From Diprion similis (Eukaryota > Arthropoda > Insecta > Hymenoptera > Diprionidae), in the NCBI RefSeq assembly GCF_021155765.1, contig NC_060118.1, positions 4,960,001 through 5,024,000 on the forward strand: 64,000 nt of DNA, read 5' to 3'. The notes beneath the pieces are model-generated. The model had not been told where the DNA came from. It did no database searches and was given only the letters and a program-made list of their open reading frames with translations. Positions 14,207 through 60,998 of this stretch are shown here, piece after piece. The position numbers and the translations under genes are program-made. Every line of letters begins with the position of its first letter. The first letter of the stretch is position 1.

Positions 14207-15021
14207 ACTGTGTTGATTTTTTTTCACCATCTATAGAAAGTGTGTGATCAAATTTTTGATAATCGAATCAGAAGATTGCTAGAGCACTCAACTTTTATCA
14301 ACTTTGATGGGAATGTCTGCATTGGTTGGAGGAATGGTGATATGGAGGAAAAGTAAATCAGACGAAATATAAAAAATGTACACAAACGTTAAACTCTTTA
14401 TACACTATATATAGCTGAAGATAAATGTGAAAAGTTGTTTAAAAACCTTACGTTTGTTACAAATTAATAAAAAAGAAAACATACTTGGTAGTCCAATGTC
14501 TACTCATACCACAATTATCTCATCTCTGCTGGTGTAAAAGATTTGTTTTAAAGAAACAGCTTCTGTACAGAGTACCTTAGCGTTTCTTGAATAATTTACC
14601 ATCGTTCTGCTAAAACTGAACTTGAGACAAATGAGCTAATCACATGGTTGCAATAATACAAACGCCAAGTAAATGAAAATATGTTTTCGATGATTACACA
14701 GTGATAGCACTATATACAAGAAATAATACGAGTAAAAATGATATATTTAAAGAAATTGATTAGAGGAAATGAAAAATACGGTCACGACATTATATATATA
14801 CGAAATCTTAATTAAATTGGTTACAATTATTTGCAAGATTATTCTTCATCAGCTCTGGATTAATTTTACTTTTAATAGCAACATACAGTATGATTTCAAT
14901 CGCTATTAAATCCCTGCATTTATAAGTGGGCGGCAAGGAGACAGAAAATACCAAAAAGCCAATTTTTCAATATAAAAAACGAATTGAAGAAAATTCCAGT
15001 ATTTTGACAGAAAATTAATAA
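14207..15021. other. Intergenic interval and 3' UTRs of convergent genes
   Basis: It holds the PRCC 3' flank, then AT-rich DNA with no further coding signal up to the stop codon of the HAUS1-like gene. Confidence 0.5.
14466..14471 (+). promoter_or_regulatory. Polyadenylation signal AATAAA, probable PRCC 3' end
   Basis: A canonical AATAAA lies about 260 bases after the PRCC stop codon, in the correct orientation. Confidence 0.5.
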
Positions 15022-15861
15022 TTATATGTTACTCGAAGATGCTACAAGAAATTGTTCTGATATTTCTTTATACTCAATTTCTTTACTTTCAAGGAGAGCC
15101 CTGGCCTGTAATAAGTTTGGAGGTAAATCGCTGTATGGCGCTAATGTCTGGTCAAGTTCTGCCAACCGGTCCTTCAATGCAATGAATCTTCTGTATTTGT
15201 CCAAAATTTCTTTTGGTTCAAATTTCTCCAGACCTAAACTGTCGTGACCAGTTTCCATTTTACAAGCCAACTCATCATACTTATCCAACTTGGTTGTTTG
15301 TGATTTACAACTGATATCATCATTCTTGATGTCATCTTCTATTTTTGCAACTGAATTCGTTATAAAGCTGACATTCCCTTTTAAATCACATAGCTCCTTT
15401 TGAAGAAGAGAGTGTCTGTGTAATAACTGCTTATATTTAGTTTTTGATTCTCGCTCTAACAACTGCTGTTTTTTATCATGAATCTTTTTACTTTCCATAG
15501 ATATCAACAATGATGTTTCATCAACATCAGATAATCCATATTCTTTTACTATCATTGAAACATCTTTCAGACTCTCTTTAACATCTTCAGGAAAAGTGTC
15601 AGGCTGTATATCAAGCTCTTTTAGCAGCTCCAGAATCTCATTACCAAGCGCCGTATCCTCAGCTTCGGTTTCATCAATTGCTTTCTTGAGATGAGATAGA
15701 TTTAGTTGTTCATTTTCTTGATCTGCAGTCTTTTCCAATGTTGTGTTTTTAGCTGACATATAATTGGTATCCATATTCTTGTGCCAGGTACTTTCAAAGC
15801 CTGCACCAAAGCCTGTAACAAATGATTTGGCATTTGAAATATTTTTCCTGCATCTATTCAT
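15022..15861 (-). CDS. HAUS1: Coiled-coil protein resembling augmin subunit 1 (HAUS1)
   Basis: A single 279-residue ORF, acidic and predicted to be almost entirely helical or coiled coil from about residue 45 to 275. The closest resemblance I recognise is HAUS1 (augmin complex, microtubule-dependent microtubule nucleation in the spindle), which is also ~278 residues. The C-terminal segment around LAPYSDLPPNLLQARALLES matches the Y-x-DL-x-PN pattern followed by an acidic helix in HAUS1. The segment around EILELLKELDIQP aligns loosely with the HAUS1 middle. The WLxxIF-type N-terminal motif of vertebrate HAUS1 is not present, so an upstream exon may be missing; the frame stays open above ATG 15861 and a 'tacag' acceptor-like site lies just upstream. 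Another coiled-coil centrosome or spindle protein is possible. Confidence 0.55.
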   Translation of the reverse strand: MNRCRKNISNAKSFVTGFGAGFESTWHKNMDTNYMSAKNTTLEKTADQENEQLNLSHLKKAIDETEAEDTALGNEILELLKELDIQPDTFPEDVKESLKDVSMIVKEYGLSDVDETSLLISMESKKIHDKKQQLLERESKTKYKQLLHRHSLLQKELCDLKGNVSFITNSVAKIEDDIKNDDISCKSQTTKLDKYDELACKMETGHDSLGLEKFEPKEILDKYRRFIALKDRLAELDQTLAPYSDLPPNLLQARALLESKEIEYKEISEQFLVASSSNI

Positions 15862-16926
15862 ATCAAATGCCGAATAATAAAACTGTATAATGGTTCATAT
15901 ATCGATCAGGCAAAATAATTTGAAAGGATATATTTTTTAGACAATGTGATCACTAATAAAAGTAATTCGAATCCATCCCGATCTTTTTTCAACGATTGTT
16001 ATTAGCAAGTAAGGTAATCGAGCCTTTTTGATTTTAATCAGTAATCATGGCTGTGATACAAGATCAAAGGAATACATATGGGACAGCAGATTAAAATGAG
16101 ATAAAATATAGTTGTCAGTCAAGTTAAATTTTACGTACACTGTGAAAAATGGAATAGGAATATGAAAAGCAGCCTTGCAAACATTCACAAGAAAAAGTGT
16201 AGGGGATTGGAATACAATCATTTACCATAAAATTATAAAATTTTCCTATTACTTTTCGTATTAGGTTCTAGTATAATACGGGCTTGACAGGTTAAATGAG
16301 TAACAATGATTTTCCTTACCTCGTTCTAATTTTCTATTATTAAACAATGTATTAACTAACAGGCGGGGAAAAACCGTTCTTCTTCTCCCTTTTCTCCTTC
16401 TTTCCTTATGACAATAGCTGCACTAGATGGAAGGACCGTTGACTATCATGTTTTAAATGAATACTTGAGCTCACTCGCGCCAGCGAAGCCAACTTCATGC
16501 TCCGAAAAACGTATCGGCTGTAAACAGTGTTGCCAATAAGCTATCGTTTAGTACTTTATGGTCTCCTACGTAAAGTTGGCTGATCCCGCATTCTTTTTTG
16601 GACTTTCCAGCCAAACGGCGTACTACCAAACGTTCGTATCAAGTTTGTCGTGACCACCAAACGATTGTGCGTCAATTAAGCTCCATTTGAAATTAGTTGG
16701 AGTGAAAATAAAAAAAATCCGGCTAACTTGACGCCTAGATTCGTTTAATCGATATCAAATCAACTATTGACTACCAAACGATTTCATTAGGCTACCAATC
16801 ACCACCAATCGACCACCAAGCGATTAGTATAATCGAAATTAAAAAAGGCTCGTGATGCTCGACCAACTTTACGTAGGTTTTGAAGTTTAGTGCTGGTTTA
16901 TTGCTAAATGGCAGCGCGACACCGAA
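15862..16926. other. Non-coding interval with degraded 'accaaacgatt' repeats
   Basis: No exon recognised. Between about 16600 and 16850 the words 'ctaccaaacg', 'ccaccaaacgatt' and 'aactattgactaccaaacgat' recur. They recall the subrepeats of the 9913-11156 and 44300-44900 repeats, so this is probably a decayed relative. Confidence 0.45.
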
Positions 16927-37600: not shown

Positions 37601-39489
37601 TTAATAGAGCATATTCTCATTACCTTTATTATCCCGTTTATAAAAATGTATTTTTTTCCTTGTGGATTGAAAAAAAAAAAACAAAAACAAAAAAAAAATA
37701 GAAAACAGAGCTCTTTGCGGACGTGAGAGATTTAAAGGCTGAAAAAAAACGAGTGAAACCTGTTAGTGAACAAGAAGAATGCGAATCGAGAAAAGTATGG
37801 CGCGAGGTAACTGCTGGACTCAGATTAAATGATATGGATCGTGCTACTGTTGCTAAGTATTCAATTGAGCAACGACAAAGAGAAGAAGCTCGCCTTCGCA
37901 AGGAAAGTAATGTTCCCTGGCAGACTAAGGTAAGTTGTTTTACGTGGTTCATATTCAGGCTACAGTCAATTTTCAAGGAAAAAAAACGCCGATGACTACG
38001 TTGATATTTCCATACGTGTCTTACATATCACTGTAGATTATATAAAATTGAAAGTGATATCCAAGGTGTAAATGTGGGGGAAAAGGAATTCGTTTTAATT
38101 TCATTCTGCTCAAAACAGTTTGCAATAAGAAAATATAAGACCTGTTGCATTACAAGGATAACTGAAAAACAAAATTTTTGCAAATCAACAACTTTTTGTC
38201 AGACTTAACTGATCAGAGTTATTATACACTACAAAAAAACTCGCCAGTTCCAGAAACGATTTGATTTTAAAATCTATAAATAATTCAGAAACTACTATCC
38301 GGTGATACTCAAATGTGACCATTTGTTAGCAATATCATGAACTACTTATCACAAGACTTTTACGAACATATATCTGCAGTTTTCTAAATTATTGTAATTT
38401 TAGTTTGTTTGGATTCATCACTTCAGGCTGCATAGATAACTTATCTGTACGTTTTAATATCTGTTTACAAAAATAAGTATTTTTCATGCATTTTCAATTT
38501 TGTATATCAAGTATTATGGTACTTTTCTATATTGATGGCTAAATAAAAATGCGTAATATATAGGCAACATTTAAACTGTTTTGAGTTGAAACAATTTCAA
38601 TCAATTAACAAAACACGCAGTCAAAAAAACCTTGAAATATATCCGATTTGACGTGGAATTGGCCATGTATAAAAATTCTAAAAATTTACAGAAATTGCGA
38701 TACAAACTAAGTTTTTCGACCGAAAGAAATTAATTTTTCGTCATTGATAAAAATGTTTTAGATAAAAATATCATCCCGAAATATATAATCCCAAAATTTG
38801 AACATGCTTTTATGAGTCATTTGGTTAATTGCTTTTTGATAGTTTCACGATAATTATGGTTTTCAAACATTCGGTCCGCAATCCCAAGTCCATATTCTAT
38901 ACCTTCATGTTCAAAAAATTCCTATTGAAACTTCGAAGTCGATATATTTGAAACTTATCGCGACCGCCTGTTGTGCTGAGTATGTAAGGGGCTGTAACTA
39001 TAAAATTTTATGAATTGGAACAGAAAATTTCTGGAACATTTCCCTCAAACCATACACTTTTCATTCATGAAAAAAATCGATATATTTCAACCATTTAAGA
39101 CTTCACGTTATAGAAGAACCATTTTAATTTCTACGATCAGCCACTATATAGATGATAAATTCCATAGGTACTGGAAAAAGGAATAATTACATTTCTTTAT
39201 TTCACTTAACATACAGTTCCATCTTTTGCAAGGCAAATCAGAAATATATTCTTAAAAACAATTTACCTCTAAATTCAAAATCAAAGGGGTAAAGAGAGTA
39301 AATGCAGGTCATTGGAGGCTGTGCCTGAGTCTCAATCTGTTAATAATAATTCTCAACTCAGATTAAGCTTAAGGTATTAATTACTTTTTGGAACAGCTTT
39401 TTAAGGAAACTAAAGATGGAGGCTGGGCATATGTATCACCACTTTCGGACAGGCTGCTAGTCACTACAAAGGAAACCAACAATGCATAA
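19662..39489 (+). CDS. OSBPL9: Oxysterol-binding-protein-related protein, ORP9 type (complete, 13 coding exons)
   Basis: Coding exons: 19662-19769, 28018-28233, 30397-30627, 30722-30797, 30856-30945, 32314-32431, 32795-32904, 34534-34563, 34634-34796, 36823-37097, 37177-37571, 37702-37929, 39397-39489. The frame is kept throughout, giving 710 residues (human ORP9 ~736). Exons 1-2 encode a PH domain ([19 protein letters not shown], later [10 protein letters not shown]), which in this family binds phosphoinositides. Exon 3 continues the helical region. Exon 6 has an acidic tract leading into YFDATEE, a FFAT-like VAP-binding motif for ER contact sites. Exons 9-13 form the lipid-binding ORD ([20 protein letters not shown]), with the ORP signature EQVSHHPP ending at the exon 10/11 junction, and YNPILGE and [12 protein letters not shown]. 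The C-terminus ends KETNNA. Role: lipid exchange between ER and Golgi or other membranes. Exons 1 and 4 appear to use GC donors. An in-frame ATG at 19536 would add 42 residues; I prefer [10 protein letters not shown] because the family begins near the PH domain. Confidence 0.95.
21453..21780. mobile_element. 330-bp inverted-repeat MITE in ORP9 intron 1
   Basis: The left arm 'cgtggtcaaacggcatagat' followed by 'cgaatcccaaaatgtat' matches the reverse complement of the right arm, 'atggtccaacgacatgcat' followed by 'cgaaactcaaaatctgt'. Similarity continues for ~90 bases ('acagatcNttgattat'). Confidence 0.65.
22694..22805. mobile_element. Hairpin MITE of ~110 bases
   Basis: 'aacgtggaaaaatccagcgc' followed by 'ctgaggcagacaatcagagt' pairs with the complement of 'actccagttgtctgcccta' followed by 'ggtgccggattgttccgcgtt', around a ~30-base loop. 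A similar half-site ('cttcagttgcctacttcagg') occurs near 5292. Confidence 0.6.
23125..23130 (-). promoter_or_regulatory. AATAAA, possible polyadenylation signal of the elongase
   Basis: The minus strand reads AATAAA about 30 bases past the elongase stop codon (23160). This is plausible for a compact 3' UTR, but the region is A/T-rich. Confidence 0.4.
23160..25950 (-). CDS. Very-long-chain fatty acid elongase, ELOVL family (complete, nested in ORP9 intron 1)
   Basis: Four exons are read: 25905-25950, 25504-25781, 24727-25029 and 23160-23324. All junctions are GT-AG in a consistent frame, giving 263 residues, typical for ELO/ELOVL proteins. The family condenses malonyl-CoA with long-chain acyl-CoA in the ER membrane. 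Visible hallmarks: [20 protein letters not shown] (first membrane span) and the [13 protein letters not shown] loop. Further in come [19 protein letters not shown] with the catalytic HxxHH histidine box, [14 protein letters not shown], and the last spans in exon 4 ([20 protein letters not shown]). The C-terminus ends in KKTA, matching the KKxx ER-retrieval pattern. The start at ATG 25950 ([10 protein letters not shown]) fits the usual short N-terminus. It is antisense to the host gene. The paralogue class within the insect ELOVL expansion cannot be decided here. Confidence 0.92.
23560..24117. mobile_element. 560-bp MITE in elongase intron 3
   Basis: The terminal arms 'actattgagacatttcact' plus 'tgaagcagacaacgaaa' and, in reverse complement, 'acaatagagacatttcac' plus 'gtgaagcagacaatgaaa' match over ~38 bases. 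The interior is AT-rich without an ORF. Confidence 0.7.
26364..27025. mobile_element. 660-bp MITE in ORP9 intron 1
   Basis: The left end 'acacgggtccacaaaaata' and subterminal 'gggggtcgaactgtatt' are mirrored on the right by the complements of 'acacaggtccacaaaaata' and 'gggggtcgaactgtatt'. Confidence 0.75.
29127..29497. mobile_element. TTAA-flanked palindromic MITE, copy 1 (ORP9 intron 2)
   Basis: It has TTAA at both ends. The arms contain 'catatctccaaatatcaaa' on the left and the complement of 'tatatctccaaatatgaaa' on the right. A second copy lies at 57409-57770 with the same 'atatctccaaatat' word and TTAA borders. Confidence 0.75.
29713..30239. mobile_element. 527-bp element with ~120-bp inverted repeats (ORP9 intron 2)
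   Basis: The outer ends 'ctacactagggtggttctta' and (reverse complement) 'gtagaatggggtggccctta' and the inner arms with 'ctacgtcaactggaacacg' on both sides give long imperfect terminal inverted repeats. No ORF is supported. Confidence 0.7.
31692..31793. mobile_element. ~100-bp hairpin MITE (ORP9 intron 5)
   Basis: 'agagccagtaccaacacatg' pairs with the complement of 'catgtgttggcgctggctct', with an inner loop of ~60 bases. Confidence 0.6.
35249..35799. mobile_element. Probable 550-bp element with agggtgacc/gtcaccct ends (ORP9 intron 9)
   Basis: It starts 'agggtgaccactcg' and ends 'gacgtcaccctgg', with 'gccaccctaaaaacc' nested inside. A similar 'gtcagggatt...caccctg' stretch lies at about 27360-27440. 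The ends are short, so the call is tentative. Confidence 0.4.
36038..36734. mobile_element. ~700-bp MITE with aagggtaacaccactc ends (ORP9 intron 9)
   Basis: The left end 'ttaaagggtaacaccactcc' and the reverse complement of the right end 'tcaaggggtaacaccactct' match over ~19 bases. The interior has a long T run and no coding signal. The left flank is TTAA and the right is TCAA, close to the TTAA elements. Confidence 0.65.
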
Positions 39490-42400
39490 GAAAACCCGAA
39501 GATGCTTCACGAAATTTAGAAAACGATATTAATTATACATTTTTAATATGACGACGATGTCGTAAGATATGATGCCTAAGGTCTCACATGACCGTTGTAG
39601 TATGTGTAAATTGAAGGGATAGAATTAAAATGCCTTGCTATATAGTTTATCGAATGAAAGAAGAAAACAGACATGATTGATATGATTAGATATATTTTGA
39701 AGAGCACAATAATTAACAAAGTGAATTAGGTGCTCCTATTTGAAATGCAGTTGAAGACATGGGTTACTTGAGGGCTAATTCAGACTTAGCGGCTCAAGAA
39801 GACCGAGTAGATGGATATAATGCAAGTAGGTATACTGATCACGCCTAAAGTGTCATGATTGCCTTTTAAGCAATGCCATTGTTAAGTATTTTGTAGTTTC
39901 CAAATCAAGAATCACTTAGTGATCTCAAAGCGACATATTAACGATATGTGTAGATTAAAAAGGTTATTCCGGTTTGGAAATTTGATTGATCAGTTGAAAT
40001 GGCGTGAAAACTAATTTTGTTATTATACCCTTGAGCGCCAGAAGAATCAGCTTTTACATTTCATAATCGGTTAAATGAAATTTTCAGCTGACCGAATAAG
40101 CTTCTTCTGGTAAAACAGCCTGCCTGGGTTTGGATACTATAGTCTTTCCAATAAGATGACCAATGGCTTCAAGTACATAATTTTTGAAAGTAGGAATTGT
40201 AACCCATGATCCCTAAGAAGTAAGATATCATATGATGAAAATATTTGAAGGAAGGTATGTACCAACTGTCTCATCGCGTAGGTCAATTCGGAGCATTTGG
40301 TGGTCATGATTTTCATGAACCAACCTCCAATGATACACATTTTGAACTTGGCAATGTTATACCTCTGAACAAAGCTTCAGTACACATTTCTAATGTTGAA
40401 TTTGGCTCACAGAAAAAGTGCACACCGAGTGCAAATTCCGTGATTGTCAACCGGTGCAGAAAGGAGAAAACCAGAAAAACCATAAGCGGTGCACATTCTA
40501 TAGCAAATGGAATTTGCTATATGGTGCAAAATTAATGACCAAAATTCCGCAAAGCCTAAAATAATTTTTGCGTACTATAATGCCGTGTATCAGAACGTAA
40601 GAAGTCATTTATTTTAAGCTGTACCATTGAACTGTGTACTTCAGAAACGTGTACCAATGCCTTGTGAGTTACTGTTAATGTTCGTGTGTACATTTGAAAT
40701 GTAAGCAGGAGATATCTTTTTGATTTTGTGTCCAGCAATCAGGCGTTTTTGTGTTAATTTTTATGCAATAATTCATGTCTAATTCCATTACGTTGAACGG
40801 AATAAAGGTATACAAGAAGAAAAAAGTAATGTATTATTGTAATATTCGTTCTATTCCATTATTATAGAGCTTATAATAACATTATTGAAAAACAACACAT
40901 TAATTGTACTGCAGAAGATAATTAAGGTTGCTATCACAAATATAGTATAAACTTTATTTGAGCCCCATGCGATGCTTTTCTCTGTTATAACATTTAGTAA
41001 TTGTATGCAACATTAAACTGTTGGTACGTACGTTTTATTTTAAGGCATGTGTAATTAATTTATTGCAACATTGTTGTAATGTACATGTACATATAGGTGT
41101 ATACGTACGTATGTATAATATGAATATTCATGGATTATTTTATAACCTACTTCGACATTTTTTGTGCCCCAGCATCGGGTTTCTTTCCATTTTTCCTGAG
41201 CCGATGATATTCGGCAAAAACCATTGACCTCAATCTTTCAAATCTATATCTCTCCTGCAGTCTTCTCCCAAGAAATGTTAAATTGAATTTGAATATTTTA
41301 TTTCATCATTAATTAGAAACATATTTCTCGTATGGCTCATAGCGGTCTCATTGATCACAACAAGTTACAAAAGTGACTACAAATATTTGAAAAGTGACCA
41401 TTTAGTGACTAAAATTCATGCTTCTTCTTTACTTATACACGATATGCACGATCATTATGTCCACTTTTTTGCATCAAATTGGCATATTCTGAAAAAAACT
41501 GGAATTAATGTGATTCTCGTTCATCATATATTATTGAGAGGCCTATAGAAAAATATAAACTTATAGTGCTTATAAATGAAATCTTCCTCTTTTCGCATCC
41601 AGGCTTGCAACCGTTGTAGACGGAGTTGATTGATCTTCGTTTTTTTTTCAATTTTTTCATGTACTTTTTTCTAATTTTATCTTATTTCTGATTGGTTGAA
41701 AATAATCCCTTTTTTTTATAGTAACATTCAGAATCGCGATTGTTAAGCCCTTATTTTAGGTTTATTTTCCAGGCTCTTCTTACTTTATGTTAACACACAA
41801 TGAACATTACTTATTAGTTGTAATGATAATTTTTGTAACTTGGAAAATTCATTTCTTGACGGAAAAATTGCTTAATAGTTACTTTTCATGAATTGTATCA
41901 AAAATGTTATTCTGTTGACATCCATTAAGTGACTTCTCACCTACAAAATTCCAAATACGGATGTACTCTATAAACACTTTCTTTCTCTGTGAAAATTCGT
42001 ATCATTGATAATTAAATTTATCAAATATTATATATTATACAAATAAACTGTTATTGAAAATCAAAATATCAAGTACCTACCCACTTATTTTCAGTGAGAC
42101 TGAACTTCGTAACGTTAATGCAATGGTGGATTTGTAGTTAAAGTTGCTATTTCGGCTTTTAAGGGCTGTCTGAATTACAGTAAAACGTGATAAAACAAAA
42201 TATATTAATGTTTTGTAAACTCAGTACCTTCAAAGTCATCTAAAGTTACACAATAAGCATTTTTTCCCTGATTCATTACGTCAATGTTACCAATTTCAAC
42301 CTCATTATTGTCAAATAAATCTTTGTACAATATCAACTGACTCTAACATTGAATTCAACACAAATCATTAATTGTTGTAACTAATAATGACTAAAAATAA

Positions 42401-43062
42401 TCGATTAAATCGATTATTCTTTCCCGATTAATCGAGTATGATCGACTATATTTCAGACTTGAATAATTGACCAATTCGATTATTTTTCATCATAATCGGT
42501 TTTTGTTTTTTTAATCTCATGAACGATGCAATGTGATATCAATTTATGCGATTAAAGTATCAATTAAATATTCAGAATCTTCCGAAAGGTTGGAGTCTCC
42601 TGAGGCCAATGATCTATTGATCATCTTTGAGAAAAATTATTAACGTTAGCTGTTACAAATGATATGTCGGAAACATGTTTTTGTTTGCAGAGCTGTGCAA
42701 AAACTCTGAGAAATATCAGAAACCTGCATCTTAATATTACTCAAACCTCGATTCAAACTAATGCAATTTAAAATTTTGAAAAATCTCGAAACCCTTAGCT
42801 AACCCCTAGAAGACATATGTTTTCATCAACGTTCTCTAAAAGTTTGTGAATATATTTCACTTTTCACAAGTATACATTTAATCCACACTCCCACAAGCCA
42901 AATTTATCACCCATTCTTCATCAAATTCATCTCCTTCTATTTTCTAAGTTTTAATTACTCTGGAAGTATCGATTCCAACATTCATCAAACATCAGAATCA
43001 GCTTTCTATGGATAACAATTTTTTTCATTCGATGTTTTCTTGAACGTTAAAATTAAATCATT
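39490..43062. other. Long intergenic stretch after ORP9
   Basis: It presumably begins with the ORP9 3' UTR (an AATAAA occurs near 40801). Beyond that I see AT-rich DNA with no conserved exon and only short chance frames. An 'aatcgatt'-rich patch lies near 42400-42500. Confidence 0.5.
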
Positions 43063-43201
43063 CCCAGATAGAAAACACGTATGGATAAAGTCTAAATACC
43101 GTCTAAAATACGTATGGTATTGGTAAAATGCATTAGTTACGTATAATATACATATTATTGGCTGTCCTTTAGTCTTTATCTATACGTGTGTTCTATCTGG
43201 G
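43063..43201. mobile_element. 139-bp near-palindromic MITE
   Basis: 'cccagatagaaaacacgtat' followed by 'ggataaagtctaaa' is mirrored by the complement at the right end ('tttagtctttatctatacgt' followed by 'gtgttctatctggg'). The arms are ~34 bases with few mismatches. Confidence 0.8.
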
Positions 43202-43299
43202 TTGACATTCATTTAAAAAAAATAGTTTTTCCATTTGATACTAATTCTTTTTCCGACCGTCTATTCCCTGCGTATAGAATAAGAGACTGAAAATTCTTT

Positions 43300-44900
43300 G
43301 TTCAAAAGAGTAAGGCTAATAGTTGACACTCCTTTTTCGAAAAATTTCGGGAAATGCTTGAATCGAGTGTTGGCACTGCAAGCAATGGATCAGGAGTTAC
43401 AGCCGAGAAACAAGAAGCGTCTTGCATAATTTCTGTGCTGTTGATCCCACGAATCTGTGGCTTCTTGAACTTCCGCTTCGCAACGAGTCGGTGTCGTTTT
43501 TCCCAGTTTTCTCGGAAACTGTGAGGGAGCAAATGATGGAATTGGTAAATAATTAAAAAGAAACCGAGGAGCAAATAGAAGCAATTGTCACTCGGACCAA
43601 ATCGATATTTTTTTGTTTCGGATACAATTTCGAATCTGCCGTTCTTCAACGTAACCTCCAAGCCGGTCCCTTTTTTTCCAATTTCATCGAAAACTATGAG
43701 GGAGCAAATTACAACATGTGCGGAGCAATTACTAGCGATTCAGGAGCAATTAGTAGCAATTATCAAATTTTCCATATCTTCATTAGTCTAAGCGACACAC
43801 TTCGCCTCGCGGAAACCCCTGTTTTTGGTTTTTCCTAATTTATTTGAAAACTATGCAGAAGCAATATACAAATATATGAAAATAATTTGGATTAATTAAG
43901 CAGCAATTCAAGGCCAATCCAATTCGGATATATGGAATAACCATCGGTTTGTTCTAAACGTTCATTTGAATTTGGCGCCATTTTACTAGGCCTCAAGTAC
44001 CCGGAACGTTTTCGTTGGATTTTATCAATAACCGTGTGGGCTATGGGAGCAAATAATAAAATTTAGGGAGCGATCAAAAGCAATTAAGGAGTAATTATTT
44101 GGCACATGAATTCTTCGGAAATTCTACGATTTTCGAAACTCCGTGAAAAACCTGGTCGCTCCCGGAAATGTATCTTCTTTTTTTTCGAATTTCTCGAAAT
44201 CCGTGTGGCGGTAAATAATAAAAAATTGAGAGCAAATTGAGAGCAATTTTTGGCGTGAAGATTTTCAAGGAACTCGAAGATGGCAGGCCAACTTTGCATA
44301 GGTGATTGCCCGTACGGAAAATTGTTGTCAGGCAATTTACAGTTAATGAGAAGCTGTCGTAAGTTAGATGCGCTAGAACTGGACAAACTTCCGGGACTAA
44401 AACCCGACTACAATTGTTTCAATTTTTATGAATAACCGATTGACTATCAAACGTAGGGCTTGCGTTATCAAACACCTACAAGCGAACAACAAACGATTGC
44501 CCGTTCGGAAAATTGAATTTCAATGCTATTTAAACTTAATGAGGACCTATCGTAAGTCAGATGCACTAGAATTGGACAAACTTCCGGAACTAGTGCCTAG
44601 TCATAATCATTTTTTTTTTTTTTTCGGCAGGGTCAGAGGGGGGATTTTTAAATTCTTACAGATAATTGGAGGACTGTTAAAAGTTGGTGAGGCGTTCATA
44701 AACACCAACAAACGATTCCGCACATGCAGAACCCAATTCGATCCCAAAATACAATTATAAGGCACGAAGTCATTTTAGTTCCTAGTCGATCTTGTTTTAT
44801 TAACGACTAAACTATTGACCATATCAAAAGTCGGGATTTCACTATTAAACACCAATAAACGATTAAAGAAAAGAATCAACATTACGGGATTGAAAACTCG
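43300..44900. repeat. Degenerate repeat region related to the foldback and 9.9-kb elements
   Basis: The words 'gggagcaaat' and 'ggagcaatt' recur between 43500 and 44250, as in the 48.6-52.8 kb foldback. From 44300 two ~215-base units share 'attgcccgtNcggaaaattg' and 'gaNttggacaaacttccgg'. The last part ('aacgattccgcacatgcaga', 'cttgttttattaacgactaa') resembles the right arm of 9913-11156. It is a mosaic of decayed members, without a gene. Confidence 0.55.
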
Positions 44901-45602
44901 TAATTCATGACGTCTCGACACTAAACTGACAACTGATTTGTGAATTAAGTATGAAATTGAGACTTATCAAATGAATGATCTATGCTGTTTTCTTTACCTT
45001 CATATTCAGGTCAACGGGGATTACCCGTGCCTGTAATTTGTTCAAAATCGTTTCGCAAATATAACGAAACATTAATTGAAACAAAAACCAATGTGTTGTA
45101 TGTTTGGAACGATTGAAGGAGTGTTAAATTACGAATAAGTTAAAGAATTTGTATCAATATATTGTGCACAATTAATAACGATTTTTCCTAACAGTATATC
45201 GTTACGTTAACCTTGCGAATTTAACCTCATCTTAGTTTAAGGAATTAACAATGATTACGAAGTTTCTTGGCAGACAGTAAAATATATCTGGGTATAAAAA
45301 TATTACACGTTCTAAAAGACCAATTTTATTTTGTATCAAATCAATGGAGTATGAAATTATTTTTTCCAATACCTAAATAAATATGGCTCATAAATAATAA
45401 AATTTTATAAGTACTCACTTATGTTCATGGAAGAGAGACAGAGACACAATGTTCTCTCAAGATAATGCTAAATTAAACAAACACCTGTGTGGCATTTTTT
45501 GATGTCATTGAAAACAGCCGTCCAGCGCCCTGCTCTCTAAATATTAACTAGCTTAAACATCATTTTTCATAGTCCTCACTGAAACACTGTCATTTTATAT
45601 AA
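44901..45602. other. AT-rich intergenic DNA, nothing recognised
   Basis: No exon, RNA gene or repeat structure could be supported by eye. Confidence 0.4.
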
Positions 45603-45912
45603 AGTCTGACCCCGGAATAAGTGCGCCTAGACTGGCAAGGAGAAATTTTTTTTTTGAGAATCGCTATACCCCTACCACATGCTATTCCTCACGTCCCTCT
45701 GCTTCGTTTGTCTCTAATTATTTATTTTAATGCGTGACTTCTCAATAATCAATAATTTGTTTAACTAGGCATGCTTATTCATAGGTTGGGATACAAAGTT
45801 CAACTGAAGCCAAAGTCTCAGTGGGAGAGAAGGCCTCCTGTTCCTGAAATTGACTGAGAAACGGAGGAAACTAGCTGATTGCAGGAGCACTTATTCCGGG
45901 GTCTGGCTGTAC
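45603..45912. mobile_element. 310-bp MITE with agtctgaccccggaataagtg ends
   Basis: The left end 'tctgaccccggaataagtg' and the reverse complement of the right end 'ccagaccccggaataagtg' match over ~24 bases. It has no ORF. Confidence 0.8.
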
Positions 45913-46374
45913 TCATACATAATATCTGAACATTTGTTTATGCTGCCAGTAATGTAATTGTCAATTGAAATTAATGTTTCTATTTCTTCAAAGTCGGTAT
46001 CATCAGTTAGTTCCATGAATTTTCTTGAAACAGTCAACATTGACATTAATGAATGAGTTGGTTATGAAAAGATGAAACATGAACAGCTAACGACAAAGTT
46101 TTCAATAATCGATACATATAATTGCGCAATGCAAGAGAACCGATAGCATTGTCAACTTAGAAATCCTGAAAGAAAAAGTGATTCAATTCCGTACTTGTGA
46201 CTATTTGAATTGGCATCTGCTCATATTTCCTTACACACTTCAGAAAAAAAGGAAAAAATTAACAAGCAGTAATATTAAATAATTGTTAAAATTCCAGGCC
46301 ATTTTTCTTCATATGGACTTATCTATAATAATTAAGCCGAAGACAAGTAAGAATGGGTCTTTGTCGAAGTATCG

Positions 46375-47490
46375 TTATAAGTAAACAAACCCTACAAAAT
46401 ATTTATCAATAATTCTGTACGACGGAGGATATCGTTTTGTGGATGATGAAAGATGATCAACAGCAGCCAGCATGACTGGCAAAGCTACTTGACACCGTTC
46501 TATATCAACACAGTAGCTTTTCATCTCTGTCTCATTTTCTGTGTACTTGTATAAAAGTTTGGTCACTCGACTAGATGCCAATTCAATTGTATCAGCTTTA
46601 TTTAAAATGGCACAATCCTTCTCTATTAATAATTCTAAATTCTTATCCATTACCTGCAAAATCAGGTAATGGGAACGTTCACCATCCAAAGTTTCGACTA
46701 CGATTCGATTACCCGTGAAGATATCGGTTCGATTGCTAACAATTGAGATGAAATCTTGCAATGGATCTGAAGCTTTTTCAATGTCAGATTCATCATCTGA
46801 AAATTTAAATTCTATGCAGCAATTCCATATCTTAATGCTATCTTTATATGTAGAATGACCCCCAAGTGTAGATAAACATCTATTGCACGTGACTGTTTGA
46901 CTATCTTCATCGATTTTCAGTTCCTTCTTAAAAATTGCCTTGTTCAACAGTCTGTAATCCTTTTCGTAAAAACAATCCGACTCCTTGGGGTCTGGGATAA
47001 CTGAGTAATCATTGCCATCATGATTGCAACAAAACCATTCACTCGGTTCACAGATATTTGAGGGTAAGGGTAGCACTCGTTTGAAGAAAACTACTTTAGT
47101 GATGTCATTCTTACAACGTGAGCATCGCAGGCAACAGTTTTTTTCTTTTAATCGGTGTTCAATATTCATGGGATTGCTTGGAAAATCAGTGATCGAATCT
47201 CCAGGTGTAGAAACTATCTCAGTTTTGAATGATCCATATGAACCTTCGATCGGTTGGGTCTGTACTCTGAGCGAGATCCAGTTGTCGGCAACAGTCAACG
47301 AAGAAAGAGTTTTTGGTATAATTTTTATAAAATGCAGTGGTAGAAATTTTGTTTGGCTTCCAATTTGAAGAATTATCACAGATTCTTTGAGCTTCAACTG
47401 TATCGCACTTTTTTCCACAATGTCCCGAGTCAAGATGAATATGTTGCAAGAACGTATGCGCGATCTTACTTCGATTGTTATCAATTCCAT
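46375..47490 (-). CDS. UBE3D: E3 ubiquitin-protein ligase E3D (UBE3D) homologue
   Basis: A single uninterrupted 371-residue ORF (human UBE3D 389). Recognised features: a cysteine-rich segment near residues 118-127 (CCLRCSRCKN), then FFKRVLPLPSNICEPSEWFC with the family's R-V-LPLPS...EW-C-C pattern. Next come ESDCFYEKDYRLLN (human has NDCF followed by a similar stretch) and a CNRCLSTLGG second cysteine knuckle, with a hydrophobic C-terminus ending VGFVYL. The family binds E2 enzymes such as UBE2C/UbcH10 through the Cys-rich region, and its C-terminal HECT-like cysteine region is atypical. The start at 47490 (MELITIEVRSRIRSCNIFIL) gives the expected N-terminal β-rich domain. The gene has no intron here. 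Only 84 bases separate its ATG from the ATG of an opposing ORF at 47575, suggesting a shared promoter. Confidence 0.88.
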   Translation of the reverse strand: MELITIEVRSRIRSCNIFILTRDIVEKSAIQLKLKESVIILQIGSQTKFLPLHFIKIIPKTLSSLTVADNWISLRVQTQPIEGSYGSFKTEIVSTPGDSITDFPSNPMNIEHRLKEKNCCLRCSRCKNDITKVVFFKRVLPLPSNICEPSEWFCCNHDGNDYSVIPDPKESDCFYEKDYRLLNKAIFKKELKIDEDSQTVTCNRCLSTLGGHSTYKDSIKIWNCCIEFKFSDDESDIEKASDPLQDFISIVSNRTDIFTGNRIVVETLDGERSHYLILQVMDKNLELLIEKDCAILNKADTIELASSRVTKLLYKYTENETEMKSYCVDIERCQVALPVMLAAVDHLSSSTKRYPPSYRIIDKYFVGFVYL

Positions 47491-47574
47491 TGCATATCAA
47501 GTGCGGAGAAAGGTCGTTCATCTTCAATTGTTTGTCCTTCTTAAATATAGGACAAAGGCTGAGAGTGCCAGCCA
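47491..47574. promoter_or_regulatory. Possible bidirectional promoter between UBE3D and the 47575 ORF
   Basis: An 84-base interval separates the two divergent start codons. No TATA box is evident. The assignment rests on geometry only. Confidence 0.3.
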
Positions 47575-48572: not shown

Positions 48573-48604
48573 AAGTATTATTCACAATTGACTTAGTGCA
48601 ATGG

Positions 48605-48738
48605 TAGTGCAGTGCGAAAGTTTGGACATACGAATACCATGCGAGCGTTCACATACGATCCAATACGATCAGTGTAGTGGTAAACCGCTGATTGTGAACG
48701 CTCGCATGGTATTCGTATTTTCAAACTCGTGCACTACA
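48605..48738. mobile_element. Hairpin MITE, copy 2, inserted in the foldback left end
   Basis: The ends are 'tagtgcagtgcgaaagttt' and 'aaactcgtgcactaca'. The inner arms 'cgaataccatgcgagcgttc' and 'gaacgctcgcatggtattcg' are fully complementary. The corresponding place in the right end (about 52770-52785) lacks it. Confidence 0.8.
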
Positions 48739-49359
48739 TTGCACCACCTATGTGAAGCTGGCCTGCAACTTAAGATTTTTGAAATAATTAATATACCAAA
48801 AAATTGCTCCCGATTTGCTCTTAATTGCTCCGTACTTTTTATTAATTGCTCCCGCATGGATCCAGAGAAAAACTAAAAAAATGAAAACCGAAAAAAAAAC
48901 TGAAATCTAGGGAAATTCTTTAAACGCGGTTTTTGGCTAAACGGAAGGGATTTAAAGGATCTTCTGTGCGGCAAAAAATTGCTCCCCGTATGCACTTAAT
49001 TGCTCCACCGTCAGATTTAATGAATTCGCATTCGTTATCGAAAAAAAAAGGAAAAATGCAATGTGACCATAAAGTAGTGGGGGGTGGGCTAACTTCACAA
49101 CCGGCTTGAAACAAGCCTGACGAACAAAAATTAAAAAATAATTATACTAATTAATTGCTCCTGATTTGCTCCTAATTGCTCCGTAGTTTCCATTATTTGC
49201 TCCCGCATAGAGCCGGAGAAAAACTAAAAACAAAAAACCGAAAAGAAGAAGAATCTAGGGGAAAATGGCTGGAACGGAGTAGGAAATAGATATTTGCGTC
49301 TATATGAATGAAATACATCAGAAAACAATTGCATTTGTATTGCTTTAATTTGCTCTACC

Positions 49360-52250
49360 TTTATTTCTAATTGCTCCCTCGTAATTGCAGAGTTATGAAA
49401 TGATTAAGCAAGCTAGATGACGACATAACCCTACTTTTGATCGGACTCCGTTATACGGAATAAAAAAGGGACAATTGGGCTTATATGCATAAAATGAATC
49501 GAAAACGATTGCTTTGCTATTGCTTTAATTTGCTCTATCTTTATTTGTAATTGCTCCCTCGTATTCACAGAGTTATAAGATGATTAACAAGCTCGATGAC
49601 GACATAACCTCTCCGTTATACGGAGTAAAAAAGGGATAATTGGGCATATATGCATAAAATAAATCGAAAACGATTGCTTTTTTGTTGCTTCAATTTGCTC
49701 CACCTTGATTTTTAATTGCTCCCTCGTAATCGCAGAGTTTTAACATGATAAACAGGCTTGATGACAACATAACCCTACTTTTTGGTCAGCCTTCGTCATT
49801 AGTTAATCATCTTAAAAATCCCGATTACGAGGGAGCAATTCAAAATAAAAGTGGAGCAAATTGGAGCAACAAAAAATCAATCGTTTTCTGATTTATTTCG
49901 TCCATATATTCCCAATTATCCTTCGCTTTTACTCCGTATAACGGAGTCCGATCAAAAGTAGGGTTATGTTGTCACCGAGTTTGGTAATCATATTATAACT
50001 CAGCGAATACGAGGAAGCAATTAAATATAAAGGTAGAGCAAACTGAAGCAACAGAAGAGCAATCGTGTTTTGATTTATTTTATGCATACATACCTAAATA
50101 TCCATCACCTTCATCGTAAAACGGAGTCCGATCGAAAGTATGGTTATATTGTCATCGAGCTTGCTAATCATCTTAAAACTCCACGAATACGAGGGAGCAA
50201 TTAGAAATAAAGATGGAGATAATTAAAGCTTCACAAATTCAGTCGTTTCCTGATTTATTTCATCTATATAAACGCAAATATCTATTTCCTACTCCGAATG
50301 ACGACGGCCGATCTAAAGTTTATGTTGTCGTCGAGCTTATTGTTAATCATCTTGTAACTCCGCAATTACGAGGGAGCAATTAAAAATAAAGACGGAGCAA
50401 ATTGAAACCGCAGGAAAGCAATCGTTTGCCAATTTATTTCATCCATATATGCCCAATCATCCCTCTTTTACTCCGTATAACGGAGTAGATCAAAAGCAGG
50501 GTTATGTTGTCGTCGAGCTTGTTAATCACTTAAAAATAAAGATGGAGCAAATTGAAGAAACAGAAGAGCAATCGTTTTAGGATTTATTTTATGTATATAT
50601 ACCTAAATATCCATCACCTTCATCGTTGAACGAAGTCCGATCAAAAGTATGGTTATGTCGTCATCAAGCTTATGTTAATCATCTTGTAACTCCGCGAATA
50701 CGAGGGGAGCAATTAAAAATAAAGATGGAGCAAATTGAAGCAACTGTAAAGCAATCGTTTTCTGATTTATTTTATCCATAAAGACTCAATTATTCATTTC
50801 CTACTCCGTATGGTGGATTCCGATCAAAAGGAGGTTATGTTGTCATCAAGCTTGTTAATCATTTTGTAACTCCACGAATACGAGGGGAGCAATTAAAAAT
50901 GAAGATGGAGCAAATTGAAGCAACAGAAAAGCAATCGTTTGCCAAATTATTTCATCGATATATGCCCAATTATCCCTCTTTTATTCAGTATAACGGTGCG
51001 CACAATCAAAAGTAGGGTTATGTTGTCATCGTGCTTGAGAATCATCTTCAAACTCCGCGATTATGAGGGAGCAGTTATATATAAAAGTGGAGTAAATTAA
51101 AGCTACACGAATTCGGTCGTTTCCTGATTTATTTCATCTATATATAGACGCAAATATCTATTTCCTACTCCTAATGACGAAGGCTGATCAAAAAGTAGGG
51201 TTATGTTGTCATCGAGCCTGTTTATCATATTAAAACTCTGCGATTACGAGGGAGCAATTAAAAATCAAGGTGGAGCAAATTGAAGCAACAGAAAAGCAAT
51301 CGTTTTCTGATTTATTTTATCCATGAAGGCTCAATTATTCATTTCCTACTCCGTATGATGGATTCCGATCAAAAGGAGGTTATGTTGTCATCAAGCTTGT
51401 TAATCATCTTGTAACACCGCGAATACGAGGGGAGCAATTAAAAATAAAGATGGAGCAAATTGAAGCAACAGAAAAACTATCGTTTGCCAATTTATTTCAT
51501 CCATATATGCCCACTTATCCCTCTTTTATTCCGTATAACGGAGTCAATCAAAAGTAGGGTTATGTTGTCATCGTGCTTGAGAATCATCTTAAAACTCCGC
51601 GATTACGAGGGAGCAATTAGAAATAAAGGTGGAGCAAATTAAAACTACACAAATTCAGTCATTTCCTGATTTATTTTATCTATACATAGATGCGAATATC
51701 TATTTTCTACTCCTAATGACGAAGGCTGACCAAAAAGTAGGGTTATGTTGTCATCGAGCCTGTTTATCATGTTAAAACTCTGCGATTACGAGGGAGCAAT
51801 TAAAAATCAAGGTGGAGCAAATTGAAGCAACAAAAAAGCAATCGTTTTCGATTTATTTTATGCATATATGCCCAATTATCCCTTTTTTACTCCGTATAAC
51901 GGAGTCCAATCAAAAGTAGGGTTATGTCGTCATCGAGCTTGTTAATCATCTTATAACTCTGTGAATACGAGGGAGCAATTACAAATAAAGATAGAGCAAA
52001 TTGAAGCAATAGCAAAGCAATCGTTTTCGATTCATTTTATGCATATAAGCCCAATTGTCCCTTTTTTATTCCGTATAACGGAGTCCGATCAAAAGGAGGT
52101 TATGTCGTCATCTAGCTTGCTTAATCATTTCATAACTCTGCAATTACGAAGGAGCAATTAGAAATAAAGGTAGAGCAAATTAAAGCAATACAAATGCAAT
52201 TGTTTTCTGATGTATTTCATTCATATAGATGCAAATATCTATTTCCTACT
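49360..52250. repeat. ~180-bp tandem array, inverted: 3 units one way, ~14 the other
   Basis: The word 'gggagcaatt' (or a one-base variant) marks units near 49831, 50011, 50191, 50371, 50704, 50884, 51066, 51249, 51429, 51609, 51790, 51969 and 52149, i.e. spaced 180 ± 3. A shortened unit lies near 50530. In reverse, 'aattgctccc' marks units near 49371, 49551 and 49716. Each unit also contains a short palindrome 'ctccgtataacggag' and the phrase 'gttatgttgtcatcgagctt'. Orientation switches at about 49802. Confidence 0.9.
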
Positions 52251-52825
52251 CCGTTCAAGCCATTTTCCCTAGATTCTTGTTCTTTTCGGTTTTTTGTTTT
52301 TAGTTTTTCTCCGGCTCTATGCGGGAGCAAATAATGGAAAGTACGGAGCAATTAGGAGCAAATCAGGAGCAATTAATTAGTATTATTATTTTTTAATTTT
52401 CGTTTGTCAGACTTGTTTCAAGTTGGTTGTGAAGTTGGCCCACCCCCCACTACTTTATGGTCACATCACATTTTTCCTTTTTCTTTTCGATAAAGAGTGC
52501 GAATTCATTAAATCTGATGGTGGAGCAATTAAGTGTATACGGGGAGCAATTTTTTGCCGCACAGAAGATCCTTTAAATCCCTTCCGTTTAGCCAAAAACC
52601 GCGTTCAAAGAATATCCCTAGATTTCAGTTTTTTGTCGGTTTTCTTTTTTTCAGTTTTTCTCCGAATCTATTCGGGAGCAATTAATAAAAAGTACGGAGC
52701 AATTAGGAGCAAATCGGGAGCAATTTTTTGGTACATTAATTATTTAAAAAATCTTAAGTTGCAGGCCAGCTTCACATAGGTCATTGCACCACTGCACTAA
52801 GTCGATTGTGAATGATACTTTAGGA

Positions 52826-54010: not shown

Positions 54011-55031
54011 TCATTCAACAAACTTTCTTCTTGAATTTAAAAAGTCGAATAAATCATTTATTTTTCTGCAAAACTCAGATAATGCATCAATATTTTTAAA
54101 TTCCTGTGGAAATAATTTTTTCATGAATATAAGTCCGTTCACAACACTGGTACTGGGTGTTCGCAGAGCTAATTTGACCATTTGTTTACTTTGGAAATTA
54201 ATATCACATTGCTGGATTTTTGTACCAGGATACAAATTTTCTAGCTCCTGATGATTGACTTTTCACAAAAATACCATTCATACTGAATTTTTATCTAGAA
54301 GATCGAACTCTGAAAGAGTATTTCTAGTTCTCTATGGTGTGAGACATTGTGCATCAGGCACAACGATTACTGGTTAATTGAATGCTCAAAATAAGCATCT
54401 TCCTCAATATTTTTCAAGTCCCCACGAAGTTGTTTAATCAAGCCTACAGTAGTTGATGCGCTGTCGAAAGTTATTGCTCTAATCCCCATGATCCTATGTG
54501 CGTGTAATATAGTCCAAAACTTCTTTCAGGATATTCGATCTCGCTTCACGGGCCAAGCTCTTTATGAAGCCAAGATCTACATCTACATATCCTCGAAATT
54601 GAAACCCATTTCACTAATAAACACCTTTTTTTTACAGACATTTCATCTACTAGTATACCAAATTGTAGGTTCGTATCTTTAAGTGCATATTCTTCAATGA
54701 TTCTTTTCAAGTTATCTAATACTGGCTCACTAATACCAGGACTCCCAATCAGATCAATATTTGTGAACCACTTTCGAGTTGTTTGAGGATGTGGTAAGTA
54801 TTTCATAAATGAATTTCTGAAGTAATTATAAGCAGATGATGAATGAAACATTAAGGACGAAGCGAACCCTTTCAGGAGAGGTGAATATGCTATTTTATTT
54901 TTTGTACTGGGAATGTTCTTGATTATGTCCTGTAGTCCAACAGACGTAGAAAACTGTAAATGAAAGGAAAACACAAAGGCGTATATTATAGTACTTGAGG
55001 TAAATCAAGGGATGTCATAATGGTGAATACT

Positions 55032-58116: not shown

Positions 58117-60998
58117 ATGCCTTATTGTGTAGCGCCTAACTGCAAGAACAGATCATTCGCAAAATCAAAAAAACAATGTGAGATCGAAGTAGAGAATAAG
58201 GCTACATTTCGCCTGTAAGTATAAGAAATGCTTTTGAAACTGTAAATAATGTGAATGCTGTGTACCAAGTAATGTATTTGTATCTATATTCATTCAAGTT
58301 TTCCGAAAAATATTGAGAGGCGTAGGATATGGCTTGATACGATAGGGTTGGCGAACACAAGTGTGCCAAAGTATGCCTATTTATGTTCGTGTCATTTTTC
58401 ATCGAAATCATTCGATCGAACATCTGCCTTCAAAGTTAGGCTGAAAGACGATGCTATTCCAAATGTGAGTTCAATTCTTGGTTTTTGAATACAAATATGT
58501 ATCAGCATGTGAATATAAATCATTCATTTACGTAGGTTTGCATTCAGGAGAATACTGCCTTGCAAGAGACATGCAGCGTTGATAGAGAACGCAAATGCTC
58601 GGAATGCACAGAATTTCTTCTCGCAGATGAAGTCCAGTTGTACCCTGATGCAGCGGAACCTTCATCTTCAATTGATCAAGAATCTGCAAATAAAACGTCG
58701 AGAATTGATAGCCGTGAGTTGATATGAACTCTATGATGACAATATCTAATTGTTGAGATCTCCGGGACCCTTGTTAATACAAATATTAGTTTCATAATTT
58801 TCATTTTTTCAGCATCAGAGAATTTTAAGCAAAAAGATGTTTCCTGTCAAACGCCACAACCGCCAAGATGTGTTGATAAAGGTACGTGGGTATCGAAGTC
58901 GTTGATTGCAACTTCTCCCTCAAAGGAACACCTACTCAACATCATCAAAGAGCTGAAGGAATCACATCGAAAGGAGATCAAACGTCTAAAAGAAACAGCA
59001 CAACGGACAAAAAAAACGCATTGCTACCTTAAAAGATGTGATGGGTGAGTTAGGAAAGCGAATAGACCTCAATCTTCAGGAGCTAGATGTTTTAACCGAT
59101 ATTGGAAAATCAAATGCAGATCTGCTTAAACGAGTGATTAAAAAATCGATGCATGCCACAGTACACGATCCTTATCAAAGTGGTATCGATCTATCAATTG
59201 TGAACCTGGCTTTAATACCAAATGCCTGAATGCTATCAAAGAACGTGCGAAAATAGTCGATGATGTTTTGATTGGCTCTCTTGTTTTCGATGAGATGTCC
59301 ATACGTCAATATGTAGAGTATGATGGACAAAAGTTTAGCGGGTATGTAGATATGGGACCAAATATAGCTAACGATCATAGGACTGTTGCTAAAGATGCTC
59401 TAGTGTTTCTCTTCGTTGGTGTAAACAGTTTGTGGAAGATACCTGTCGGCTACTTTCTAACCAATGGTATTAGTGGAAATCAAAAGGCCACCTTAATCAA
59501 TGAGTGCCTAACTCTATTGCAAGAGTGTAATATCATTGTCAAATCGATAACGTTCGACGGAGCTCTTGCAAATATTTCAATGGCAAAACTACTCGGGTGC
59601 GGATTAGATGATCCAGCTTTTTTGCATCCTGTTACCTCGGAGAAAATTTATATCGTTCCTGATTCCTGTCATATGATAAAGCTCATACGTAATGTACTTG
59701 GGGATTCAAGAATAACAATCTTAAACGGAAATGGTGAATCCATATTATGGGGTTACATTGCCAAAATTCATGAAATTCAGGAACAAGAAGGCCTTCATCT
59801 GGGTAATAAATTACGATCAAGTCACATCGAGTATTACAAACAAAAGCTGAAAGTCAAATTTGCCACCCAAGTTCTCAGCACATCACTTGCTCATAGCATA
59901 GAATTTTGTAGAAATATTTTAAAGCTCGATTATTTTCAAAAATCAGCAGCCACAGAAGAATTCCTGAAACTATTCAATGTTCTTTTTGACATATTTAATG
60001 CGAAGAATTCGCCACAGTCTAATTTCAAGAAGCCAATCCATTTAGAAAATATAGTCGAAGTGATAAACAAACTGGATGAATGTCGAAATTACATCTTGAA
60101 TTTGAAAGAAGAAGGCACCAGACTCAGTATTGTTAAAAGACAACGTCGAATGGGCTTCTTGGGCTTTTTAATTTGTATTGAAAGCCTGAAAGGTATGTTC
60201 TACGAACTGTGCGAAGAGGCTAAAGTGTTGACACATATACCCACTTACAAGTTGAGCCAGGACCATGTGGAATTGTTTTTTGGGTGCATACAGTCGTATG
60301 GGGGGCATAATAATAACCCGACCGTTCGACAATTTAAGGCAGCATTTAAAAAAATGCCTATACACTCCGAAATGTACGAAATGGATTCAGGAAACTGTAT
60401 ATCATTGGAAAACATCGCTATCTTGCACGTTACTTCTGCCTGTAAGCCTGAGGATATAATTAATTCATCCACCCCCACTGCTCAGCTGGTCGGTAGCCTC
60501 GCAATCTCAAACCTAGACAGTGCAGCAAACGTGTTTGATGACCATTCTTATTTACCAGACATAAGAGCAATATCCGAATTTTCTGACAGGGTTATCGTGT
60601 ACATAGCTGGTTTTGTGGTTAAATATCTGAGCAAAGTCACAATCTGTGAGATTTGCGTGGGTACTCTGTCCGGCAGTGTTTTGAATCCGCAAACTGAGCT
60701 GATTGCATTAAAAATTCGAGGTGCGTTACACTATCCATCTGATAGCGTAACAACGATTTGTCGTGTAGCGGAAAGAGTTATCCGCTTTGCGTTAAAAGAA
60801 AGCGGTGGAAAATTTTTAAAGATTTTTTCAGAAGATTACCTTGCAACTTGCATTCTCTCCAATTTAACAGAAGCCAATACTTTATTCCGTGATCTCGATG
60901 ATCACTGCCATGATCAAATGGTTCTGGAAAACCATTCGGTGCATTTAACAACCGCAGTTGCACGTAAATACGTAAAAATCAGACTTTTTTTATATTGA
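58117..60998 (+). pseudogene. THAP/P-element-like transposase gene with frameshifts and an internal deletion
   Basis: Exons 58117-58214, 58299-58464, 58536-58713 and 58813 onward join in frame. Residues ~1-85 are a THAP finger (MPYCVAPNCKNRSF, FRLFPKN, CSCHF, DDAIPN). A coiled coil follows (LLNIIKELKESHRKEIKRLK). Breaks: an extra A in an 8-A run near 59013, and a loss of roughly 40 codons near 59170-59185, judged from the family's usual segment before the KWY motif. After that the frame runs intact from 59268 to 60998 (576 codons). It contains LVFDEMSIRQ and ITFDGALANIS, which hold the two catalytic aspartates. It also has the insertion domain around QVLSTSLAHSIEF, and LSQDHVELFFGCIQ with the catalytic glutamate and the GGHNNNPT motif. 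The C-terminus ends VARKYVKIRLFLY as in relatives. Its fold elements are well preserved, so the decay looks recent. Confidence 0.85.

Follow-up and report, generated by a model that had tools for sequence, protein, structure and literature searches.

The Drosophila elements FB and FB-NOF have foldback arms made of tandem repeats, a 9-bp target-site duplication, and a large associated protein; the element described here resembles them in these general features. A close structural match is Tetris of Drosophila virilis, which in the excerpted account is a non-autonomous foldback whose terminal inverted repeats (TIRs) contain ~220-bp internal tandem repeats, with an external flanking domain and duplications of 8-10 bp (PMC4079207). 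Rehavkus DNA transposons, such as Rehavkus-1_TC of Tribolium castaneum, are described in the portion of the source used here as having a 9-bp duplication, a minisatellite before the 3' TIR, and TIRs of 26-400 bp (PMC6446971). Galileo, of the P superfamily, has long, recombining TIRs with internal tandem repeats, chimeric copies, and 7-bp duplications, again from a partial account (PMC3573991). The protein that mobilizes a foldback element need not be known when the element is described, as with Tetris, for which the excerpt reports no coding partner (PMC4079207). Here, one genome holds a coding copy sharing the ends of a foldback, derivatives made by deletion and inversion, an empty site, and a recent sister copy without a single difference. 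The breakpoints at which a long-TIR transposon becomes a foldback can be located in the sequence itself, and the transposase is accessible to experiment.

The window, meaning the whole stretch of 64,000 nucleotides that was analyzed (C14:4960001-5024000), belongs to a 269-Mb Diprion similis assembly of 60 contigs, and all counts from whole-genome searches are lower bounds. We consider it highly probable that the element in this window (Table 1) is a non-autonomous cut-and-paste foldback DNA transposon derived from a larger, transposase-coding element like C14:278757-294242 (15,486 bp, hereafter the 15.5-kb copy). Its architecture is that of a foldback or Rehavkus-like DNA transposon, a known kind, since the long inverted repeats with internal tandem repeats and little unique interior that define the foldback structural class are all present, as are features of foldback mobility, namely target-site duplications, an empty site, and dispersed copies. 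The agreement with Rehavkus is in architecture and duplication length (PMC6446971 and PMC10218199, both in part), and we class the element as a foldback that works like Rehavkus, a candidate rather than an established member. Like Rehavkus, the family makes 9-bp duplications (6/6 two-ended copies) and has a minisatellite adjoining the 3' terminal repeat (14.3 units in the 15.5-kb copy), with a smaller array in the left arm too; unlike Rehavkus, its coding copy is longer and its inverted arms exceed the TIR lengths given in that source (PMC6446971, in part). Tetris units also form kb-size satellite arrays according to the excerpt (PMC4079207), whereas none occurred among the matches listed here.

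Table 1. Positions of the window element, its parts and surroundings, its two-ended relatives, and an older related end.
Feature	Position (strand)	Size or sequence	Remarks
Highly probable non-autonomous foldback transposon (window element; two-ended copy)	48746..52781 (.)	4,036 bp	Exact ends, 9-bp duplication, empty site, 100% identical C8 copy
Terminal sequence at right end, window element	ends 52781	GGCCAGCTTCACATAGGT	
Target-site duplication, left copy	48737..48745 (.)	CATTGCACC	
Target-site duplication, right copy	52782..52790 (.)	CATTGCACC	
Target repeat, left part	48573..48736 (.)		Older, dispersed, palindromic, MITE-like; outside element
Target repeat, right part	52791..52820 (.)		End approximate; outside element
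Left terminal flanking domain	48746..49255 (+)	510 bp	508/510 identical to left end of 15.5-kb copy
Three reversed array units	49276..49802 (-)		Inverted copy of right-arm array; 58-60 matches in most 60-base stretches, apart from a 14-nt gap
Tandem array	49803..52254 (+)	~13.8 units of 180 bp	Last three pair with left arm, ~11 in loop
Right terminal flanking domain	52272..52781 (-)	510 bp	Inverted: 482/509 vs left domain; 500/510 vs right end of 15.5-kb copy
Two-ended copy	C5:2901171-2904723		
Two-ended copy	C8:655890-659925		
Two-ended copy (coding)	C14:278757-294242	15.5 kb	
Two-ended copy	C9:10839064-10840736		
Two-ended copy	C1:16614058-16617788		
Old single end of related element	43526..44303 (+)	terminus AACTTTGCATAGGT at 44303	Six forward GGAGCAA(A/T)T at 43526-44046

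The window element is an insertion into an older dispersed palindromic repeat. It starts with ACCTATGTGAAGCTGGCC at 48746, the complement of ACCTATGTGAAGCTGGCC closes it at 52781, and the 9-bp duplication either side (CATTGCACC) is perfect; ACCTATGTGAAGC is the end sequence of its family and is common to the 15.5-kb copy. The first-pass annotation had placed the ends at 48573 and 52820, however, 48573-48745 and ~52782-52820 are the halves of the palindromic repeat, and the arms had been overextended because the insertion target is itself palindromic. A genome search with 48573-48900 splits at this border, with the query from 1 to ~166 matching one dispersed repeat and from ~173 a second family with copies in inverted pairs. 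When joined minus one duplication, the flanks match the palindromic repeat at 84-87% identity, uninterrupted in 4/4 copies examined (L017-L020), which represent the empty site. At the duplicated 9-mer, three of them lack 2 bp and the fourth is also different, as would be expected of copies that have diverged. This MITE-like repeat is ~155 bp long and has many genome copies, including a second one in the window (10430-10569) besides that at 48573-48736.

The inverted foldback structure itself is borne out. Aligned with the reverse complement of 51713-52781, the left arm (48746-49802) has 1,021 identities over 1,054 aligned bases (96.9%; 1,021/1,072 columns when gaps are counted), and the eight longest inverted pairs span 153-224 nt with 89-99% complementarity. 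By TRF, the stretch 49802-52254 holds 13.8 units of 180 bp, which, with three units pairing with the left arm, agrees with the earlier estimate of ~11 units in the loop. The description of the ~1-kb arms as near-identical stands for the inner part (500/506, 98.8%, with 16 gap columns) but not for the outer 510 bp (482/509, 94.7%), and this unevenness rules out a single uniform pair of near-identical arms. Among five copies compared over the outer 510 bp (window, C5, C8, C1, and C14, with the sixth two-ended copy at C9:10839064 left out), left ends are 99.2-100% identical to one another and right ends 97.3-100%, while left and right within one copy agree at 94.3-95.9%. As this left/right difference of 4-6% is common to all five, it predates the copies, and the more recent homogenization was confined to the inner arm.

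A short motif, GGAGCAA(A/T)T, recurs throughout the element and may be a transposase-binding motif multiplied by the arrays. It has 43 sites in the 4,036 bp, 13 in reverse orientation, all within element bases 1-1057, and 30 forward, all after them; 200 single-base shuffles averaged 0.07 sites and reached 2 at most. The count is inflated by tandem duplication, yet nine of the sites, in bases 1-530, fall outside the array, and the reverse-oriented motifs are also borne by the left terminal flanking domain. Only seven sites occur elsewhere in the window, six of them in the old related end at 43526-44046. Within the 14 array units of the coding copy the motif is slightly more conserved than the remaining positions (0.94 vs 0.86), a value reached by 7/180 circular shifts.

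Comparison with the 15.5-kb copy suggests how the foldback was assembled. Mosaic painting in 60-base windows every 30 bases (and also in 50-base steps) matched element bases 1 to ~510 to the left end of that copy (59-60 of 60) and bases ~530-1057 to its right array in inverted orientation (58-60 of 60 for the most part, against 37-57 for the left array), the latter match interrupted by a 14-nt gap near element base 865. Bases 1057-4036 are colinear with its right arm, and 49802-52781 aligns with bases 12506-15486 of the copy at 98.6% identity over 2,981 columns. Judged from these alignments, the window element is a mosaic of left end, inverted right-arm array, and colinear right arm, and the near-identity of the inner arms does reflect conversion or template switching. 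The proposed route would start from a larger transposase-coding element resembling C14:278757-294242, in which gap repair after excision, or conversion of the inverted arms with deletion, would have set the inverted piece of right array behind the left end, with loss of the sequence between the junction and the start of the right arm. Both termini would have been retained, leaving an element that could be mobilized by transposase made elsewhere, presumably from the coding copy or a sister since lost.

As to the route only, one template-switching event has to be weighed against a two-step history, in which the arms of an intact element underwent ordinary gene conversion and the interior was deleted later and separately; we regard this history as a serious possibility while leaning somewhat away from it. 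The inner left arm is in register with the right arm, as such conversion would leave it, and the right tip of the C1 copy equals the window left end for its first 100 bp, which points to conversion of the tips as a separate event. However, the junction at 49802/49803 has ~1 bp of shared sequence (by eye), nothing decisive separates the two routes, and the sequence outcome is the same by either. A converted inner left arm with an intact interior was found at none of the eight family loci, two of which were seen from one end only.

By either route the outcome is a derived foldback transposon, and its copies show that it has moved. A right-arm query returned at least 19 matches in the genome, 14 from eight loci of the window-element family and five elsewhere at 74-79% identity. 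The search for further copies and target-site duplications that the first-pass annotation had proposed was thus productive: 6/8 family loci are two-ended, and all six have perfect, mutually different 9-bp duplications, while C9:10482940 and C6:665594 each show a single end within the DNA examined (9.9 and 7.5 kb). The movement of the window/C8 element is recent, because the C8 copy matches at every one of the 4,036 bp while its surroundings are unlike; the target-site duplications differ, and no similarity to the window flanks was found within the C8 flank examined (281 and 266 bp). The zero differences in 4,036 bp bound the age of the element, and the identical copy with its different duplication and unlike flanks makes an assembly artefact an unlikely source of the inverted structure. 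The earlier suggestion of recent origin or gene conversion holds in both of its parts, the first for mobilization and the second, as conversion or template switching, for the inner arm. The C5:2901171-2904723 copy is nearly identical to the window copy, but its array is shorter and the two differ locally near element base 865, and the C9:10839064 copy fuses a 1.2-kb right arm (1,215/1,232) to 442 bp of left end (440/442). With ~1-kb arms of 96.9% complementarity in one molecule, the element, if transcribed, may be a source of siRNA, as had been suggested. That it now acts mainly as a hairpin-RNA siRNA locus, a role not needed to explain the recent movement, seems to us highly improbable.

No coding capacity is visible in the window element, and the earlier view that a protein would be needed in trans is supported by the coding copy with the same ends on C14. 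That copy has arrays of ~180-bp units (6.5 in its left arm, 14.3 in its right arm) and two open reading frames, ORF1 (656 aa) and ORF2 (577 aa). The genome has at least 67 matches to ORF1 (67/126 candidates scored): its own locus, one 43-residue piece at 91% inside the same element, and 65 at 23-38% identity; the 15.5-kb copy is the only locus found with this gene. In an alignment of eight proteins from the Diprion similis genome, D293, D363, the D-x-x-H motif, and E592 of ORF1 line up with the paralogues, giving the shared motifs IDA(S/T)G, (T/C)D, D-x-x-H, and SA--E; 7/8 rows span all four, L022 covers the first only (as FDATG), and three of the rows (L034, L037, and L038) are closely similar. 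We infer that ORF1 is DDE-transposase-like, with these residues putatively catalytic. Neither ORF of the 15.5-kb copy has a Pfam match and ORF1 has none in PDB, where its alignment profile reached two unrelated chains, a diguanylate cyclase and a flavodoxin-like protein (E 0.091 and 0.41).

Ten proteins were scanned against Pfam. Rehavkus transposases carry a PHD finger; the scan gave no match in the C14 ORFs, and the PF23663 zinc finger occurs in three of the ten, all paralogues. UCH peptidase matches were found in two, one above the cut-off, and the few further weak domain matches look like chance. Membership of the canonical MULEs was rejected, with PF10551 in one paralogue only (E 0.056; 14.3 bits vs a cut-off of 27.6) and none of at least 28 genome matches to PF10551 within the 15.5-kb copy. 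ORF2 has at least 25 matches in the genome, the top one besides itself at 25% identity. A profile of its C-terminus with five paralogue pieces matched 46 PDB sequences up to E 10, comprising 42 ubiquitin carboxyl-terminal hydrolases (best E 6.7e-5, hydrolase 6), two TssM deubiquitinases, and two other proteins. The matched region is the C-terminal one, which we take to be the His box of these hydrolases. In single-piece Pfam scans the ORF2 piece had no match, and UCH was matched by 2/6 pieces. ORF2 likely has a ubiquitin-peptidase-like (USP) domain, an assignment built on its alignment with paralogues; it is a lead for a host-interaction function and is not among the Rehavkus features in the portion of the source used here (PMC6446971). 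The frames of ORF1 and ORF2 differ, meeting at a 17-A run that may mark an intron, an error, or a true break, and the 15.5-kb copy may therefore be non-functional. Inside this copy lies a 1.6-kb palindrome (L011/L012, C14:287280-288901; 86% self-complementary), possibly another nested foldback. Among viral contigs, the ORF1-protein alignment gave 23 pattern matches and a single transposase protein 90, with zero confirmed as transposase relatives in either case, and the 24-base terminus was absent from the viral contigs searched.

Could the element instead be a Galileo-like P-superfamily foldback, with P-type transposase supplied by, for example, the THAP9-like sequence at 59142-60998? Galileo does have long TIRs with internal tandem repeats, and P-type coding sequence lies within the window, however, Galileo makes 7-bp duplications (PMC3573991, in part) against 9 bp in 6/6 copies here, and the 15.5-kb copy with window-element ends codes a different protein with no P-type match. 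On these two grounds membership was rejected, and we consider such an origin highly improbable. That the locus is an immobile satellite array, locally inverted and duplicated, would fit its 13.8 tandem 180-bp units but is virtually untenable, being contradicted by target-site duplications in 6/6 two-ended copies, exact ends, an empty site, and the finding that all 55 matches returned by a two-unit array query (a lower bound) lie in seven places also carrying element ends.

The foldback transposon belongs to a wider group. A partner for the old end at 44303 was found neither in the window by terminus pattern nor by a repeat search of 38000-47000; the genome search with 43700-44303 gave at least 26 matches, 25 besides itself, at 66-78% identity, and these diverged matches argue that the lineage has long been resident. 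At C9:10817432-10825904 lies a related coding locus whose termini (ACCTGTGTGAACCTGGC and its near complement) are similar; it has inverted 142-bp arrays, flanking 9-mers alike at 6/9 positions (by eye), and a different 9-mer, CGTTTGTAC, repeated 24 times in the arm stretches counted. A second relative, C5:6641311, has inverted 135-bp arrays and 1.3-kb stretches 94% identical; element ends were not found there with the terminus patterns tried. A doubtful but far-reaching generalization is that a DDE recombinase and a USP/C19-like deubiquitinase domain are joined in the transposase clade (at least 67 matches scored, pieces included), and that inverted tandem arrays have arisen in its elements several times independently, through template switching between arms that multiplies short binding motifs particular to each family. 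If true, foldback architecture would be a selected way of multiplying transposase-binding sites, and the peptidase would shield the transposase from degradation. Among six related loci scanned with ~1.5 kb of flank, tandem arrays appeared in L024 and L043, the two sides of the C9 element, and not in L026, L032, L034, or L023, which weighs against arrays being general in the clade; in L026, the C5 relative, they appear once it is extended, the other three having been scanned with ~1.5 kb of flank only.

After the right array of the C5 relative (L056, C5:6645500-6645900) lies sequence resembling the start of an 18S ribosomal RNA gene (by eye), possibly an rDNA-adjacent insertion. Within the window, the THAP9-like sequence at 59142-60998 (+) is a 618-aa open frame with THAP9/P-element transposase domains (PF21787, PF21788, PF21789, and PF22824), and a piece resembling it lies at 54546-55004 (-) (by eye). 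The window also has host coding sequences resembling PRCC (13220-14206), HAUS1 (15022-15894; just below the cut-off), and HECT_2 (46375-47496).
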